Source: Flavobacterium lacustre (GTDB lineage Bacteria; Bacteroidota; Bacteroidia; Flavobacteriales; Flavobacteriaceae). From it: a stretch of DNA of 64,000 bases. Made by a program: the position numbers and the translations under genes. The stretch covers positions 1,116,001 through 1,180,000 of the forward strand of contig NZ_CP114882.2 in the NCBI RefSeq assembly GCF_027474525.2, in the 5' to 3' direction. This document shows, in pieces, positions 708-62,124 of this stretch (position 1 is its first letter; every line of letters begins with the position of its first letter). The notes beneath the pieces are model-generated. The model saw only the letters and a program-made list of their open reading frames with translations, did not search any database and was not told the DNA's origin.

Positions 708-1409
708 TTAGTCTTTTTTTCTGGTTGTGCGTTGTTCAATTCTCTTTTCGTATTGCTCTCCTTGAAAAATGCGTTGCACGAATATTCCGGGAATATGAAT
801 TTGGTTGGGGTCGAGTGTTCCGGCTTCTACCAATTCTTCGACTTCGGCGATGGTGATTTTTGCAGCGCCAGCCATACAAGGATTGAAATTTCTAGCAGTT
901 CCTTTGAAGATGAGGTTTCCTGCTGTATCGCCTTTCCAGGCTTTTATGATGGCAAAATCAGCGTTGAAAGCCAATTCCATAATATGCATTTTACCGTTGA
1001 ATTCACGAGCTTCTTTTCCTTCGGCGACTTCGGTTCCGTAGCCTGCCGGGGTAAAAAAAGCGGGAATTCCGGCTTGTGCTGCCCGACATCTTTCTGCCAA
1101 AGTTCCTTGCGGAATCAAGTCTACTTCGAGTTCTCCGGAAAGCATTTGGCGTTCGAATTCGGCATTTTCTCCTACATAGGAAGAAATCATTTTTTTGATT
1201 TGTTTTTTTTGCAAAAGCAATCCGAGACCAAAATTATCGACACCGGCATTGTTGGAAATACAGGTAAGATTGTTGGTTTCTTTTTTGACAAGTTCGGCAA
1301 TGGAGTTTTCCGGAATACCGCACAATCCAAAACCACCGAGCATTAGTGTCATTCCGTTTTCGATTCCTTGAAGGGCTTCTTGAACTGTATTTACTTTTTT
1401 ATTAATCAT
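708..1409 (-). CDS. scoA: 3-oxoacid CoA-transferase subunit A
   Basis: This is the alpha subunit partner of scoB and supplies the CoA-binding half of the heterodimer. The [10 protein letters not shown] glycine-rich motif (residues 25-34) is typical of the family. I chose the ATG at 1409, giving 233 residues, because the upstream in-frame extension to 1451 ([14 protein letters not shown]) is not family-like and the conserved protein begins at MINKKVN. A copy of the dispersed intergenic repeat (1472-1550) lies just upstream. Subunit order A then B on the minus strand is usual. Confidence 0.92.
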
Positions 1410-1471
1410 AAATGAGTCTCGTATTAGCGGATTATTGTACTGGATTTGCAATTCAATTAGGAATACTAATG

Positions 1472-1550
1472 CCTAGCCCTGATGGAAGCGACATCCTTTT
1501 ATGCCGGTTTTCGGCATGAAAGATATAGCGTACAGCGGGAAACAGCTCCT
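1472..1550 (-). repeat. Dispersed intergenic element, copy A
   Basis: One of three related elements of about 80 bp in this window (others at 13310-13389 and 61345-61420). On the plus strand it begins CCTAGCCCTGATGG and ends AGCGGGAAACAGCTCCT. A central hairpin has arms at 1501-1506 (ATGCCG) and 1512-1517 (CGGCAT) around a 5-nt loop. It lies between the end of the PBP1A gene and the start of scoA, both on minus. I orient it on minus because all three copies then read AGGAGCT...GGGCTA in the direction of their neighbours' transcription. Function is unknown. Confidence 0.8.
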
Positions 1551-1573: not shown

Positions 1574-3886
1574 TTATAATTCGAATTCGTCTGTGCTTTG
1601 TTCTACTGCGGTAGAGTCTTGAACGACTTTTGGCGCGGTGTAACAATCTACTTTTATGGATAGATTTGCGGGTCTGTCGAATTGTCCTTTGGATACGTGA
1701 AGTGCCGGATCGGCATAACAAAGTTTCATGAAATAACCCCAAACTGGTAATGCGGCTGTGGCTCCTTGTCCGTAAGTGATGCTTTTGAAACGTGCGGAAC
1801 GGTCTTCGCAACCTACCCAAACTCCGGTCACCAGGTTAGGAACCATTCCCATGAACCAACCGTCGGATTGGTTTTGTGTGGTACCTGTTTTTCCTGCTAT
1901 AGGGTTTTTGAACTGGTACGGATATCCTGTCCAGCGATTGTCTCCGTTTCCTCCGCCTGTTGTGCGCAAACGATCTCCTGATCCTCCTTCGGTTACGCCT
2001 TCTAATAATTTGATGACAGCAAAGGCGATGTCTTTGTTTAGAACATCATGAGATTCGGGTATGGGTTCGTAAATGATTACGCCACTTTTATCTTCAATTT
2101 TGGTCAAAAATTGTGGTTTGATGTATACGCCTTGATTGGCAAAAGTGCTGTAGGCTGCAACCATATCATGTACGGTAATTTCAACAGCTCCTAATGCAAT
2201 TGAGGGTTGGTTTACAATTTCAGATTGAACGCCTAATTTGTGTGTTAAGTCAATTACTGCTTCAGGTCCTACTTTGTCAATTAATTTGGCCGAAATAGTA
2301 TTGATGGAGTTGGCTAATGCTTTTTTCAAAGTCACCATTCCTCTGTATCTGTTGTCGGAGTTTCTTGGTTCCCAATCCTCGGTAACATGGTGTTCGCCTT
2401 TGCGAATCATGAATGGAGAATCGACGATAGAATCACAAGGAGACATGTTCAGTTGTTCGATGGCGGTTGCATAAACAAACGGTTTGAAAGTGGAACCTAC
2501 TTGTCTGGCTCCTTGTCCTACGTGATCGTATTGAAAATATTTGTAATTGATACCGCCAACCCATGCTTTTATGCTTCCTGTTTGCGGTTCCATGGCCATA
2601 AGACCGGATTGTAAAAAGTGTTTGTAATACCGAATAGAATCCAGAGGTGTCATGATGGTATCTCTTTCTCCTTTCCAGGTGAAAACCTTCATTTTTGTCT
2701 TTACTTTGAATGAGGCTATAATTTCTTCTTCACTTTTATCCATTGATTCCATGATGTTCCAACGTGTGGATGATTTCATGGCTTGGTTCATGATTCGTTG
2801 CGTTTCGGCTTGTGATATGTTGACAAATGGTGCGTTTTTATTGTCCTTAGACTGTTCAAAAAACTCTTCTTGAAGGTTTGCCATGTGTGCTTCAACTGCT
2901 TCCTCGGCATGCAATTGCATTCTGGAATCGATGGTGGTGTAAATTTTTAAACCGTCTTTGTAAATGTCATAATCAGACCCGTCCGGTTTTTTGTTTTCTT
3001 CTACCCATTTTTTCATGTAATCACGCAAATATTCTCTAAAATAAGTGGCCGTTCCATCTTTATGACTTTCTAATTTGAAGTTCAGTTTGATAGGTAAACT
3101 TTGTAATCTTACTTTTTGATCTTTGGTAATGATGCCTGCTTTTTCCATTTGTAAAAGCACTACATTTCTTCGATTGGTAACGCCTTCCGGGTTTCGTACT
3201 GGATTGTATAAACCGGAATTTTTGAACATTCCCACCAAAATTGCAGATTCATCAATGGTTAAATCCTTTGGTTCTTTTGAAAAATAAGTTTTTGCAGCAG
3301 AACTAACGCCAACTGAGTTATTCCCAAAATCATATACATTACAATACATGGCTATGATTTCGTTTTTGGTATATTGTCTTTCTAATCGAATGGCTATAAT
3401 CCATTCTTTGGCTTTTTGTACAATTCTAAAAGGCAAAAATTTAGACCCTTCTCCGTGAAATAATTGTTTGGCTAATTGTTGGGTTAGTGTACTTGCTCCG
3501 CCACTGGTTCCAAAACTCAAAATAGCTCTCATTGTTCCTCTTCCGTCAATTCCTGAATGTTCGTAAAAACGAGCATCCTCGGTGGCTACCAATGCTTGTA
3601 CCAGATTTTTAGGCAAATCGGAATACTTTAATTGAGACCTGTTTTTTTCGAAATATTTTCCTATTACAACGCCATCAGCCGAAATGATTTCTGTAGCTAA
3701 ATTGGAATCCGGATTTTCTAAGTCTTCAAAAGAAGGCATTGAACCAAAAAGTCCCCATGAAGCAAACAAGAAAAATAATGCAAGGCCTCCCATACTATAC
3801 AAGAAAACTTTCCAAAATTTCTTTGAATAATATTGAATGTCTTTTTCGGAATTATTGATTTGATTGTTATTTTTTCTAATAGCCAT
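1574..3886 (-). CDS. Penicillin-binding protein 1A (bifunctional transglycosylase/transpeptidase)
   Basis: The 770-residue class A PBP polymerises and cross-links peptidoglycan at the outer face of the inner membrane. A single N-terminal membrane anchor spans about residues 27-47. The GT51 glycosyltransferase motif with its catalytic glutamate is EDARFYEHSG (from E103). The transpeptidase has STFK (nucleophile S465), SIN (S527-N529) and KTGT (K666). All catalytic residues are present and the length is normal. The gene starts 10 nt downstream of gldH, so it is likely read with ricT and gldH, a grouping that links wall synthesis with an envelope lipoprotein. Confidence 0.95.
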   Translation of the reverse strand: MAIRKNNNQINNSEKDIQYYSKKFWKVFLYSMGGLALFFLFASWGLFGSMPSFEDLENPDSNLATEIISADGVVIGKYFEKNRSQLKYSDLPKNLVQALVATEDARFYEHSGIDGRGTMRAILSFGTSGGASTLTQQLAKQLFHGEGSKFLPFRIVQKAKEWIIAIRLERQYTKNEIIAMYCNVYDFGNNSVGVSSAAKTYFSKEPKDLTIDESAILVGMFKNSGLYNPVRNPEGVTNRRNVVLLQMEKAGIITKDQKVRLQSLPIKLNFKLESHKDGTATYFREYLRDYMKKWVEENKKPDGSDYDIYKDGLKIYTTIDSRMQLHAEEAVEAHMANLQEEFFEQSKDNKNAPFVNISQAETQRIMNQAMKSSTRWNIMESMDKSEEEIIASFKVKTKMKVFTWKGERDTIMTPLDSIRYYKHFLQSGLMAMEPQTGSIKAWVGGINYKYFQYDHVGQGARQVGSTFKPFVYATAIEQLNMSPCDSIVDSPFMIRKGEHHVTEDWEPRNSDNRYRGMVTLKKALANSINTISAKLIDKVGPEAVIDLTHKLGVQSEIVNQPSIALGAVEITVHDMVAAYSTFANQGVYIKPQFLTKIEDKSGVIIYEPIPESHDVLNKDIAFAVIKLLEGVTEGGSGDRLRTTGGGNGDNRWTGYPYQFKNPIAGKTGTTQNQSDGWFMGMVPNLVTGVWVGCEDRSARFKSITYGQGATAALPVWGYFMKLCYADPALHVSKGQFDRPANLSIKVDCYTAPKVVQDSTAVEQSTDEFEL

Positions 3887-11409: not shown

Positions 11410-13281
11410 ATGAGCAAATCTCTCGAAGAGGTAAACCAATCGGTTTCCACACAAAATAAAACCACCGTTTTCAGGAAAATATTAGCCTTTTTTGGTCCCG
11501 CATATTTGGTAAGTGTCGGATATATGGATCCGGGAAATTGGGCAACAGATATTGCTGGCGGAAGCCAATTTGGTTACGCATTACTTTGGGTTTTATTAAT
11601 GAGTAATCTAATGGCGTTGCTTTTGCAAAGTTTAAGCGCCCGTCTGGGAATTGTAACCCAAAGGGATTTGGCGCAAGCTTCGCGGGAAACTTATTCGCCT
11701 TTTATCAATTATATTCTTTATTTTCTTGCCGAAATTGCCATTGCAGCTTGTGATTTGGCTGAGGTTTTAGGAATGGCCATAGGGATAAATTTGTTATTTG
11801 ACATTCCGCTTATTGAAGGGGTTTTAATCACCGTTTTAGATACTTTTTTATTGCTTTTTTTAATCAATAAAGGCATCCGAAAAATGGAAGCTTTTATTAT
11901 CGTTTTAGTAGCTATTATTGGGTTTTCTTTCATTTTCGAAATGATTTTTGCAGAGCCGGAGATGAGCAAGGTAATTTATGGATTGATTCCATCGATGCCA
12001 AATGAAGCCGCACTTTATATCGCCATAGGAATTATCGGAGCAACAGTGATGCCGCATAATTTATACTTGCATTCTTCTTTGGTACAAACCCGAAAATTCT
12101 CCCGAACTCACGCCGGAATCAAGCAGGCCATAAAATATAATTTCATAGATTCTGCCATTGCGCTCAATTTAGCTTTTTTTGTAAATGCCGCTATTTTAAT
12201 TTTGGCCGCAGCCACATTCTATAAAAACGGCATGTTTGAAGTCGCCGAAATACAAGATGCACATAAATTTTTGGCACCACTTTTAGGGACAAAATGGGCG
12301 CCAATATTATTTGCTGTAGCTTTAATTGCTGCAGGACAAAGCTCAACAATTACAGGAACTTTGGCTGGGCAAATTGTCATGGAAGGCTACCTTAATTTGC
12401 GCATTCAACCTTGGGTTCGTAGAATAATTACCAGAATAATTGCCATAGTTCCCGCCGTTATTGTCATCTTGATTTATGGCGAAAGTATAACCGGAAAACT
12501 ACTCATTTTAAGTCAGGTTATTTTGAGTTTACAACTGGGATTTGCTATTATTCCACTCATTCATTTTGTGAGTGACAAATCTAAAATGAGAGGATTTCAT
12601 ATTAGTAAAATCACTCAGGTTGCCGCTTGGATTATTGCTTCAATTATAGTTTCGCTCAACGCCAAATTAGTTTTTGATGAAATTTCAGGATGGTTAGAAA
12701 CGTCTCAAAACCCAATAATTCTTTGGTTAACCGTAGTTCCTTTGGCATTTGGTTTCCTTATTTTGTTGCTTTATATCGTTTTTAAACCGTTTATTTCCAA
12801 AGCCAAATTAGACATTCACAACCATTCGCCTCACAACATGGTTTTGAAGTTTTCAGAATCGGCAGCGCATTCCCAAAAGAATATTGCCGTTTCAGTAGAT
12901 TTTTCTTTTGCTGACGAAAAAGCCATTAATTACGCCTTCAACATGGGCGGAATAGATGCAAAATATACCTTGATTCACGTGGTAGAAACCGTAGGCGCCA
13001 TGATTTACGGAAAAAATGTAGATGACCATGAAACCACAATCGACGAAAAATTATTGCTCGAATACAAGCAAATGTTCCGCGAAAAAGGCTTTCATGTCAA
13101 AACGCAATTGGGTTTTGGAAAACCAAATAAAGTGATTCCAAAAATTGTCAATAAAGGTAATTTCGATATTTTAGTAATGGGAACACACGGCCACACCGGC
13201 ATGAAAGATTTGCTTTTTGGCACTACAGTCGACAAGTTGCGCCATAAAATTTCAATTCCTTTGGTAATCGTAAATAATTAA
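11410..13281 (+). CDS. mntH: NRAMP-family Mn/Fe transporter fused to a universal stress domain
   Basis: The 623-residue inner-membrane protein has an NRAMP core (about residues 25-470) with the metal-site motifs DPGNWATDIAGG and GATVMPHNLYLHSS, giving proton-coupled Mn2+ (or Fe2+) import. Residues of about 485-623 form a cytosolic UspA-like domain with the nucleotide-binding signature GTHGHTG followed by FGTTVDKLRH. Classical MntH is about 410 residues, so the Usp part is a true C-terminal fusion that may sense nucleotide or stress. mntR follows on the same strand with a repeat element between them. Confidence 0.93.
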   Translation: MSKSLEEVNQSVSTQNKTTVFRKILAFFGPAYLVSVGYMDPGNWATDIAGGSQFGYALLWVLLMSNLMALLLQSLSARLGIVTQRDLAQASRETYSPFINYILYFLAEIAIAACDLAEVLGMAIGINLLFDIPLIEGVLITVLDTFLLLFLINKGIRKMEAFIIVLVAIIGFSFIFEMIFAEPEMSKVIYGLIPSMPNEAALYIAIGIIGATVMPHNLYLHSSLVQTRKFSRTHAGIKQAIKYNFIDSAIALNLAFFVNAAILILAAATFYKNGMFEVAEIQDAHKFLAPLLGTKWAPILFAVALIAAGQSSTITGTLAGQIVMEGYLNLRIQPWVRRIITRIIAIVPAVIVILIYGESITGKLLILSQVILSLQLGFAIIPLIHFVSDKSKMRGFHISKITQVAAWIIASIIVSLNAKLVFDEISGWLETSQNPIILWLTVVPLAFGFLILLLYIVFKPFISKAKLDIHNHSPHNMVLKFSESAAHSQKNIAVSVDFSFADEKAINYAFNMGGIDAKYTLIHVVETVGAMIYGKNVDDHETTIDEKLLLEYKQMFREKGFHVKTQLGFGKPNKVIPKIVNKGNFDILVMGTHGHTGMKDLLFGTTVDKLRHKISIPLVIVNN

Positions 13282-13309: not shown

Positions 13310-13389
13310 AGGAGCTAATCCCGCTATCCGTTACAATCTTACAGGCCAAAACCCGGCCCATAAGGATTTTCACTACTATCGGGGCTAGG
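13310..13389 (+). repeat. Dispersed intergenic element, copy B
   Basis: The element runs from AGGAGCTAATCCCGCT to CGGGGCTAGG and matches the reverse complement of the 1472-1550 copy over its length. Hairpin arms are GGCC at 13344-13347 and 13355-13358, with different bases from copies A and C. It lies between mntH and mntR, both on plus, so it has the same relation to local transcription as the other copies. Confidence 0.8.
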
Positions 13390-13429
13390 AAATCTGCAAT
13401 CAAGAACACTAATTTTCAATCAAAATCCT

Positions 13430-14083
13430 ATGACTTTTTCAGAAGAAAATTATCTTAAATCCATATACCATCTTACCGCAGTTTCCGAAACGGAAGTCAG
13501 CACCAATGCGATTGCCGAAATGATGGAAACCAAAGCTTCCTCCGTAACGGATATGCTCAAAAAATTAGCCGAAAAAGAGTTCGTTAATTATAAAAAATAT
13601 CAAGGCGTTTCCCTTACTAATAAAGGAAAACTTGCCGCCAAAATGATTGTGAGAAAACACCGTTTATGGGAAGTTTTCTTGGTCGAAAAACTAGACTTTT
13701 CCTGGGACGAAGTACATGATATTGCCGAACAATTAGAGCACATTAAATCCGAAAAATTAATCAATAAACTCGATGATTTTCTGGGAAATCCCACCGAAGA
13801 TCCACACGGCGACCCCATTCCCGATGCAAATGGTCAAATGATTAAAATCGATAAACAATTGCTTTCGGAATTGATGCAAAACCAAACCGGAATTTGTGTT
13901 GGAGTAAAAGATACGTCTTCAGAATTTTTGAAATATTTAGACAAACAAGAAATAGCTTTGGGCTCAAAAATTGAATTTATATCCAAAGAAACATTCGATT
14001 TATCGCTAAAAATAAAAGTAGATGGCCGAGACTTGACCGTTTCTAATAAAATTGCAAGTAATTTATTTGTGAAGGTGATTTAA
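13430..14083 (+). CDS. mntR: DtxR/MntR-family metal-dependent regulator
   Basis: The 217-residue protein has an N-terminal winged helix (MTFSEENYLKSIYHL onward), the DtxR dimerisation/metal-binding helices with VRKHRLWEVFL, a conserved segment GNPTEDPHGDPIP, and a C-terminal FeoA/SH3-like domain. It should repress metal uptake genes when Mn2+ or Fe2+ is bound. Location 148 nt after mntH on the same strand makes mntH its natural target, through the palindrome at 11334-11349 or another site. Its stop overlaps the stop of the convergent small Cys-rich gene by 4 nt. Confidence 0.92.
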   Translation: MTFSEENYLKSIYHLTAVSETEVSTNAIAEMMETKASSVTDMLKKLAEKEFVNYKKYQGVSLTNKGKLAAKMIVRKHRLWEVFLVEKLDFSWDEVHDIAEQLEHIKSEKLINKLDDFLGNPTEDPHGDPIPDANGQMIKIDKQLLSELMQNQTGICVGVKDTSSEFLKYLDKQEIALGSKIEFISKETFDLSLKIKVDGRDLTVSNKIASNLFVKVI

Positions 14084-60582: not shown

Positions 60583-61257
60583 TTATTTCCCGTTGAATGT
60601 GGTCATGGTATTTTCTAATCCGGCTGTTCCAAAAGATTTTATGATTTCCGAAGCTAATTCTAAACGTTCCGGGAGTGCGGTTTTCTCGGCATCATCCCAT
60701 TCACCTAGCACGTAGTCTATTTGTTTTCCTTTTTTGAATTCATCGCTGATGCCAAAACGAAAACGAGCATATTCTTGTGAATTCAGGATCAGATTGATGT
60801 TTTTGAGTCCGTTGTGTCCGCCGTCGCTGCCTTTTTTTCGGATGCGGATGGTTCCGAATGAGAGGTTTAAATCGTCGGTAATGACTAAGATGTTTTCCTG
60901 TGGAATGTTTTCCTTGTCCATCCAGTATTTAACTGCTTTGCCGCTGAGATTCATGTACGTGTTGGGTTTCAGGAGGAAAAAGGTTCTGCCTTTGTACTTG
61001 TATTCGGCCAATGCGCCCAGTTTTACGGTTTCGAAAGTAAGGCTTTCTTTTTTGGCTAAAAAATCAACTATTTTAAAACCGATATTGTGTCGGGTATTTA
61101 CGTATTCGGCACCGATGTTGCCTAGTCCAACGATTAGAAATTTATTACTCACGCTTTTCATATTGTTTTTTTGGTATTCGAGAACCTCTGGTTTTCTATA
61201 ATCTGTATTGTCTGCTGTTTTTGTTGATAAAAACAGTTTTGTTATCCATTTTATCAT
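60583..61257 (-). CDS. pth: Peptidyl-tRNA hydrolase
   Basis: The enzyme recycles peptidyl-tRNA. Catalytic and binding motifs are GLGNIGAEYVNTRHNIGF and LLKPNTYMNLSG, with DDLNLSFG and GSDGGHNGLKN after. The frame from 61257 gives 224 residues with a 38-residue Lys/Thr-rich N-terminal extension; an internal ATG at 61161 gives the usual length of about 190. I report the longer frame but the short start is possible. A dispersed repeat copy lies upstream. Confidence 0.92.
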   Translation of the reverse strand: MIKWITKLFLSTKTADNTDYRKPEVLEYQKNNMKSVSNKFLIVGLGNIGAEYVNTRHNIGFKIVDFLAKKESLTFETVKLGALAEYKYKGRTFFLLKPNTYMNLSGKAVKYWMDKENIPQENILVITDDLNLSFGTIRIRKKGSDGGHNGLKNINLILNSQEYARFRFGISDEFKKGKQIDYVLGEWDDAEKTALPERLELASEIIKSFGTAGLENTMTTFNGK

Positions 61258-61344
61258 GATGCAAAAATAGACTTAATTAGAATAATGCACTAATTAGCGG
61301 GTTGGATTTTTAGAAAAGGGGATTATAAATAAAGTATTTCAGGA

Positions 61345-61420
61345 TAGCCCTGATGGAAGTGGCATCCTTTTATGCCGGTGTTCGGCAGGAAAGATAGAAC
61401 GTACAGCAGGAGGGAAGTTG
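61345..61420 (-). repeat. Dispersed intergenic element, copy C
   Basis: It matches copy A closely over TAGCCCTGATGGAAG, GCATCCTTTTATGCCGGT and AAAGATA, and diverges at its end. Hairpin arms TGCCG (61373-61377) and CGGCA (61383-61387) enclose a 5-nt loop. It lies between L25 and pth, both on minus, in the same relative orientation as the other copies. Confidence 0.75.
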
Positions 61421-61460
61421 TTTTGAAAACTAATAGTGTGCTCCTAAAAAAGTATAAAGC

Positions 61461-61494
61461 AAAAAAAAGCACCAGTTTTGCAACTGATGCTTTC
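61461..61494 (-). terminator. Terminator of the L25 gene
   Basis: On minus, AAGCATCAGTT-GCAA-AACTGGTGCTT forms a stem with one G-U pair, followed by eight T, 19 nt past the L25 stop. Confidence 0.85.
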
Positions 61495-61512
61495 TTGAAT
61501 GTGTGAAAAAAA

Positions 61513-62124
61513 TTATTTTTTCTTTCCTTTTGCAGGAGCTTTTGCTGCTTTTGCTGCTTCTTGAGCTGCTTTCATAGCTGCACGAGAAATTCTTACTTGA
61601 CAAACAACAGTGTTGTCTGGGTGCATCAATTTGTATTTGTCAGAAACAAGTTTCGTAACGTACAATTTGTTACCCATTTCAAGTGGAGTAATGTCAGCTT
61701 CAACAAAATCTGGAAGATTTGCCGGTAAAGCTTTTACTTTTAATTTACGAGTGTTCAAACGTAAAACACCACCTGCAAGAACACCTTTAGATGTTCCAAC
61801 GATTTTTACAGGAACTTCCATAGTGATTTCTTTTTCATCAAATAATTGAAAGAAGTCAATATGTAAAATCTTGTCAGATACAGGGTGAACCTGAATATCT
61901 TGTAAAATGGCATTGAATGATTTTCCTTTTCCAAGATCAATCACAACTGTGTGTGCGTTTGGAGTGTAAACCAAGTTTTTGAAAGCCATAACTTCTGCTG
62001 AGAAATGAACTGCCTGATTTCCTCCGTATAATACGCAAGGAACCAATCCAGCATTACGTAAGGCTTTAGTCGCAACTTTACCCACGCTTTCTCTTTCTGA
62101 TCCTTTAATTGTAATCGATTTCAT
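61513..62124 (-). CDS. rplY: 50S ribosomal protein L25 (Ctc form)
   Basis: The 203-residue protein binds 5S rRNA. It has the L25 N-terminal domain ([19 protein letters not shown] ... VPCVLYGG) and the longer C-terminal Ctc domain ([27 protein letters not shown]), with an Ala/Lys tail. Length fits the Ctc type. It is on minus after prs, 89 nt away. Confidence 0.96.

Follow-up and report, generated by a model that had tools for sequence, protein, structure and literature searches.

The three intergenic elements at issue in the 64-kb window, the whole stretch of Flavobacterium lacustre DNA analysed here, are copies of Flavo-1 (Rfam RF01705), a family in which the fold of one strand, that of the Rfam model, has long been kept whatever the direction of the surrounding genes. 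Their identity is secure, as all three matches exceed the gathering score of 42 bits (Table 1), and the cmscan E-values for the 64-kb window (6.6e-14, 5.7e-14 and 2.9e-11 for copies 1, 2 and 3) show that the matches are not due to chance. We propose, with a rough probability of 0.45, that Flavo-1 is a REP-like element of Flavobacterium and relatives, old and scattered between genes, and that it is kept for the fold its Rfam strand adopts as a single strand. A preliminary description of this DNA had placed three intergenic elements, alignable over about 80 bp, between codirectional genes, and both the sequence with its RF01705 matches and the ORF calls confirm this; at each site the Rfam strand runs opposite to the two genes, whose calls come from a simple ORF-based gene finder and carry approximate start positions. 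The impression that copy 3 is weaker at its first end is explained by about 28 extra nucleotides ahead of its 3' end, GCTCCT, which lies displaced at 61440-61445. The preliminary description mentioned, correctly, similar repeats in other Flavobacterium genomes and gave them no name; the name exists in Rfam.

Table 1. Flavo-1 copies of the window and the genes on either side of them
Feature	Position	Strand	Evidence and remarks
Flavo-1 copy 1 (type 1)	1472..1550	+ (Rfam strand; antisense to both neighbours)	cmscan 1471-1546, 72.1 bits
Flavo-1 copy 2 (type 1)	13310..13389	- (Rfam strand; antisense to both neighbours)	cmscan 13313-13390, 72.3 bits
Flavo-1 copy 3 (type 1, displaced 3' end)	61345..61445	+ (Rfam strand; antisense to both neighbours)	cmscan 61342-61417, 62.5 bits
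CoA transferase gene, copy 1 neighbour	708..1451	-	PF01144; true start probably near 1409, at MINKK
PBP1A-type gene (transglycosylase + transpeptidase), copy 1 neighbour	1574..3886	-	PF00912, PF00905
Nramp-Usp transporter gene, copy 2 neighbour	11410..13281	+	PF01566, PF00582
DtxR-type metal-dependent repressor gene, copy 2 neighbour	13430..14083	+	PF02742, PF01325, PF04023
Peptidyl-tRNA hydrolase (Pth) gene, copy 3 neighbour	60583..61257	-	PF01195
Ribosomal protein L25 gene, copy 3 neighbour	61513..62124	-	PF01386, PF14693

The family itself is already known, catalogued with its function unexplained. The account of the motif in the 2010 catalogue where this candidate RNA is listed presents it as a probable RNA of the Bacteroidetes, not cis-regulatory, and names no function for it (Weinberg et al. 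2010, PMC2864571); the entry in a later review likewise lists it without function (PMC9029176). In the F. psychrophilum transcriptome, according to the passages that deal with Flavo-1, several 5' transcribed regions coincide with matches to the family, and the matches lie sense or antisense, many of them outside transcribed regions, and give no functional clue (PMC9723704). Rfam types RF01705 as 'Gene; sRNA', and we found no description of an outer stem, subtypes or a strand constraint among the open-licence papers searched. The elements analysed here share with the Flavo-1 RNA of RF01705 their sequence, basal stems with 3x3 internal loops, a variable apical stem and occurrence in the Bacteroidetes; they differ in that the Rfam model stops inside the hairpin P3, whereas here an outer stem, P1, and a variable P3 are added, and in their division into type 1, type 1 with a displaced end, type 2 and a long-arm type 3.

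Judged from its sequence, Flavo-1 extends past the Rfam model, the new part being a putative outer stem that covaries in one subtype. The arm covered by Rfam, P2, consists of short stems, purine-rich 3x3 loops, a bulged C (present in 95/95 anchored elements, six anchorless ones being left out) and a variable apical stem; in copy 1, ATC at 1493-1495 is able to pair with GAT at 1522-1524, with the bulged C at 1496. Watson-Crick pairs occupy 484/505 basal cells with several pair types per position, the second basal pair being CG in 39, TA in 31, AT in 17 and GC in 9 of 101 elements, besides TG in 3, CA in 1 and CT in 1, and the basal pairs covary while the loops that separate them stay mispaired. 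The central hairpin of the preliminary description, with stem bases that change while pairing stays, is borne out by these counts. Five-base loops end 65/124 distinct apical arms, on differing stems; 32 of the 65 read TCTTT or CCTTT, and 25 form G-N-[GT]-T-T. The arms of four copies (L205, L245, L232 and L360) resemble one another in an insert around CTATTTTCATAGGAGTTC..GAACT, which gives the impression of a swapped-in module.

The 3' end GCT[CT]C, with which the 5' AGC is able to pair as P1 with P3 in between, lies 1-2 nt past the last P2 base in 113/147 elements and 26-34 nt past it in 23, and was not found in 11; in copy 1 the proposed P1 would join AGC at 1475-1477 to GCT at 1545-1547. In type 2 the outer stem reads GCGTNA/NACGC, P3 is a highly variable hairpin, and the free position is T-A in 9, G-C in 7, A-T in 1 and mispaired in 2 of 19 elements, three of which were read by eye. 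The data for type 2 support a three-way junction, in which P1 would close P2 and P3. For type 1 such a junction is a proposal: its P1 is almost invariant, which leaves nothing for covariation to test, and P1 is absent from the RNA folds of lowest energy for copies 1 and 3, though present when copy 2 is folded as DNA.

The two strands can be told apart because a G-U wobble, read on the complementary strand, becomes an A-C mismatch. Read on the Rfam strand, the 2157 scored pairs of 147 distinct elements, parsed with patterns that put little or no restriction on the scored positions, include 41 G-U against 7 A-C (p 6e-7, a value too small because the elements are related by descent), and an excess of G-U is found in 35 elements, of A-C in 3. 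Divided by context, the G-U and A-C counts are 19 and 0 in antisense copies, 6 and 1 in sense copies, 9 and 1 between divergent genes, 4 and 2 between convergent genes, and 3 and 3 in unclassified positions. Because the antisense copies lack the reversed ratio, the mRNA of the neighbouring genes is unlikely to be the selected molecule. One strand's fold, that of the Rfam strand, has thus long been kept whatever the gene direction, and the G-U excess is equally compatible with RNA and with single-stranded DNA; the asymmetry argues against a cruciform using both strands. Predicted RNA energies on the Rfam and the other strand are -24.9 and -22.1 kcal/mol for copy 1, -27.0 and -18.8 for copy 2, and -25.3 and -20.0 for copy 3, although for copy 3 the RNA fold of minimum energy departs from the family fold and scores no better than shuffled sequences (z -0.28); predicted DNA folding energies of two window copies are -13.0 against -9.2 and -11.5 against -6.5.

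Orientation relative to the genes is mixed in the type to which the window copies belong. Type 1 and its variants, counted over own and relatives' copies, among them the three copies of the window and a Pth-L25 copy from one relative (L070), lie antisense in 32 cases and sense in 28 (p 0.70), so that a fixed orientation fails for type 1, whereas the rarer type 2 does lean antisense (14 against 2, p 0.004, with a duplicate copy counted once and 3 of 19 unclassified). Relative to the Rfam strand, the 59 copies of the F. lacustre genome comprise 25 antisense, 14 sense, 11 divergent, 3 convergent and 6 unclassified, and 45 copies in relatives, all with at least 600 bases of flank, comprise 15 sense, 13 antisense, 8 divergent, 7 convergent and 2 unclassified. 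A wider parsed set, from which 30 copies of two orthologous sites were left out, holds 44 antisense and 32 sense copies (p 0.21), with 17 divergent, 10 convergent and 14 unclassified. The preliminary description had inferred a fixed orientation, with the gene-sense strand as the folding strand and 3'-end processing or mRNA stability among the possible roles. The three window copies are indeed alike, as are most type-2 copies, but for type 1 as a whole this is a three-copy coincidence; the gene-sense strand fails as the folding strand in view of the G-U excess on the opposite one, and the mRNA role finds no support in the mixed orientation or in the G-U counts of the antisense copies. Few genome-wide copies, loss of pairing or random orientation were said to speak against a functional structured family: copies are many and pairing is retained, and orientation in type 1 is random.

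At two orthologous sites Flavo-1 has stayed in position and faces the same way, although the surrounding sequence and the apical arms have diverged. A CoA transferase-PBP1A query matched 148/150 genomes of the genus, and 36/67 relatives with both genes carry Flavo-1 in the spacer (25 by signature, 11 by eye); these relatives are returned loci and chosen matches, not a random draw, and their occupancy was partly read by eye. Several of the eye-read elements are degenerate, four are type 2, and the observed orientation is uniform, with the reverse signature in none. At the Pth-L25 site the forward signature occurs in 18/27 loci with both genes (2 of 29 loci lacked a gene, and for five long spacers the signature was the sole criterion) and the reverse in none. 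Among the parsed elements, 19 from the CoA-PBP1A and 12 from the Pth-L25 site with the own copies included, cores are 75-85% identical and flanks 33-39%. The Nramp-DtxR site holds Flavo-1 in 1/13 relatives with both genes, namely F. frigoris (42.8 bits), the other 12 comprising two spacers of about 50 bp, nine with a different hairpin repeat and one with neither; loss, decay and replacement must therefore also be common, since this site is mostly without Flavo-1. In the nine loci concerned (L118, L119, L120, L122, L123, L125, L127, L128 and L136) the spacer is filled by a hairpin of short GGTTCTAAG- or CAAAGG-like repeated units. At the CoA-PBP1A site, the apical tips of Flavo-1 itself hold other repeats in some species (L213, L214, L260 and L263, by eye).

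The family is numerous and widespread in the genus, and a structured Flavobacterium repeat with many genome copies, as first supposed, is supported by RF01705 matches throughout the genome. The single 3.45-Mb contig of F. lacustre holds 59 matches, 55 above the cut-off and 4 below, among 150 scored candidates out of 1046. Two further own copies were recovered by subtype pattern (25 five-prime halves found), both with a long apical arm of about 120 nt; the element patterns overlook degenerate copies. The long apical arms of seven own copies (L036-L039, L059, L337 and L338) have in common a motif like GAGCGAC...GGAAGCTC, which may be a second conserved domain. Seven unpaired 5' halves among the loci collected, considered as traces of an autonomous long version, turned out to be ordinary copies failing the pattern or chance-like matches. 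Across 37 Flavobacterium genomes, F. lacustre included, copies per genome range from 0 (two genomes) to at least 65; of 150 genomes drawn from the genus, 140 had a match and 10 none, and 5/23 genomes outside the genus have matches. We saw no replication-strand bias among the own copies (15 plus and 17 minus before 1.73 Mb, 16 plus and 11 minus after, with dnaA at 415 and a base-composition skew that marks the origin unclearly). Two pattern scans of viral contigs gave one match, a Flavo-1 between ORFs on a 30-kb IMG/VR contig (L336:474-565) that may be host DNA beside a provirus.

The dispersed unit can be delimited as CCCTAGCC...AGCTCCT because L024 and L013, two of the own copies, share 91% identity within unrelated flanks. 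In another own pair (L017 and L019), likewise 91% alike, the resemblance reaches some bases into the flanks, which suggests that a longer unit was duplicated. We saw no sign of recent copying: the best pair among the 59 own copies stands at 91%, and one copy queried in a complete genome (G172) has paralogues of at best 90-91% among 40 scored candidates out of 112. By eye, aligned copies and best pairs show no terminal inverted repeats or target duplications, and the ends CCTAGCC and AGCTCCT have only AGC/GCT in common.

REPs with their RAYTs are dispersed, intergenic, folded repeats with tens of copies and variable parts, and Flavo-1 resembles them in all these respects; it differs in its larger and more complex fold and in that the RAYT-like genes here lack adjoining Flavo-1, with motifs at 0/20 RAYT-like loci under strict patterns over 1-4 kb each, some ending at contig ends. 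Many of these RAYT-like genes (L266-L284) are flanked by repeats of their own, such as GCGCGGATTTGCAATCCGTGC in several species. The F. lacustre genome has one Y1_Tnp gene, about 59 kb from the nearest listed Flavo-1, and a REP/RAYT partnership within the genus was rejected, as Y1_Tnp and Flavo-1 counts are unrelated over 37 genomes (Spearman 0.02, p 0.91). Outside the genus, Y1 occurs in 4/5 genomes with at least 5 Flavo-1 copies against 3/18 others (Fisher p 0.017), and over all 60 genomes the association has p 0.008. An RRM partner was likewise set aside: its association over 60 genomes (Fisher p 1e-4) is confounded by kinship, with p 0.18 in the genus and 0.58 outside, and six genomes with 7 to 47 Flavo-1 copies have no RRM match, so that an RRM protein is at most a lead. 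The single RRM protein of F. lacustre is a 122-aa frame (G000:C1:1363707-1363916). Integron attC sites are folded in a strand-specific way, keep certain bases mispaired and vary in their terminal structure, a combination with which the strand-specific fold, conserved mispairs and variable tip of Flavo-1 may be compared; Flavo-1 differs in that no core boxes were recognised by eye, in having no cassette arrays and in being dispersed both ways. The STAXI motif, described in the same catalogue, is also repeated, and the account given of it there weighs both single-stranded DNA and RNA; as described, it forms tandem pseudoknots with UUCG loops, whereas Flavo-1 is single with T-rich pentaloops (PMC2864571).

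The best reading of Flavo-1 is a folded single strand recognised by protein, because selection acts on one strand, the element is conserved in place and its arms turn over. In the mechanism we envisage, the Rfam strand would fold into the long imperfect hairpin arm P2 and the small variable hairpin P3, closed by P1, and a protein belonging to this lineage would recognise it in single-stranded form; the past spread of the family may have relied on a mobilising enzyme. The T-rich pentaloops, the small share of G-U (41/2157) and the antisense placement make us lean to single-stranded DNA as the folded molecule, whereas RNA would be just as compatible with the conservation of the purine-rich internal loops, and an RNA reading would need transcription of the Rfam strand at antisense copies. 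Several observations count against the REP-like reading: a purely selfish repeat would not be expected to stay in place as Flavo-1 does, an orientation-blind function leaves the antisense bias of type 2 unexplained, the Nramp-DtxR site holds the element in 1/13 relatives, Y1 transposases do accompany it outside the genus, and neither a binding protein nor a mobilising enzyme was found. A more specific version, which we regard as unlikely as it stands, makes Flavo-1 a new kind of resident cassette, a single-strand three-way junction of DNA or RNA that a dedicated protein would read and whose one-strand fold would be kept in place irrespective of transcription, while its apical arms would be exchanged from copy to copy or give way to other repeats and its base would be preserved.

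Other explanations account for part of these data. An independently transcribed small RNA, made from the Rfam strand at each copy whatever the neighbours do, agrees with the Rfam type, with the G-U excess that RNA predicts and with conservation in place, and we hold it to be possible, if on the doubtful side. It sits poorly with copy numbers that vary from 0 to at least 65 within one genus, with F. psychrophilum matches that, in the relevant passages, lie in either sense and often in no transcribed region (PMC9723704), and with the absence of an Rfam-strand-specific promoter excess upstream of the 59 own copies: 9 have TAnnTTTG within 150 bp upstream on the Rfam strand and 11 have it on the opposite strand, and 4 and 3, respectively, combine it with a spaced TTG, where 1.2 are expected in random stretches. 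A presently mobile non-autonomous element, whether a REP with RAYT or a MITE, is decidedly unlikely. Unrelated flanks around the dispersed unit, large copy-number differences, the other repeats in the Nramp-DtxR spacer and the Y1 transposases that accompany Flavo-1 outside the genus are what it would predict; the lack of recent copies among those compared, the unrelated Y1 counts within the genus, the 20 RAYT-like loci free of Flavo-1 motifs and the failure to see inverted repeats or target duplications by eye speak against it.

An element that acts in cis on mRNA, at the 3' ends of genes or within operons, and serves processing, stability or termination is very improbable: it would account for the shared direction of the window copies and most type-2 copies, yet orientation is mixed in type 1 and in the wider set, the antisense copies show the opposite of transcript selection, and we found no terminator-like site (G+C-rich stem plus T run) at copies 1 and 2. 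At copy 3 a clear terminator-like hairpin (61496-61463, minus strand) adjoins the L25 stop and lies outside the element, whose 5' edge is overlapped by a weak match of 6 pairs; a hairpin like 61463-61496 is visible in most relatives read at Pth-L25. Least probable of all, and hardly to be expected, are neutral, functionless palindromes kept perfect by template-switch mutation, to which the apical arms would conform, being mostly perfect palindromes, widely variable and with tips that host other repeats; their basal pairs covary while the mispaired loops stay mispaired, the core is conserved inside diverged flanks, and the asymmetry of G-U and A-C opposes the idea as well.

Flavo-1 has stood without a function since 2010 although it occurs in 140/150 of the genus genomes searched. 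The strand constraint, the conservation in place and the proposed three-way junction make the question of its function testable. If Flavo-1 is, as we read it, an old REP-like element maintained because one of its strands folds, the search would be for a protein with affinity for the folded Rfam strand, in the form of single-stranded DNA or RNA, and not for the machinery of mRNA 3' ends.
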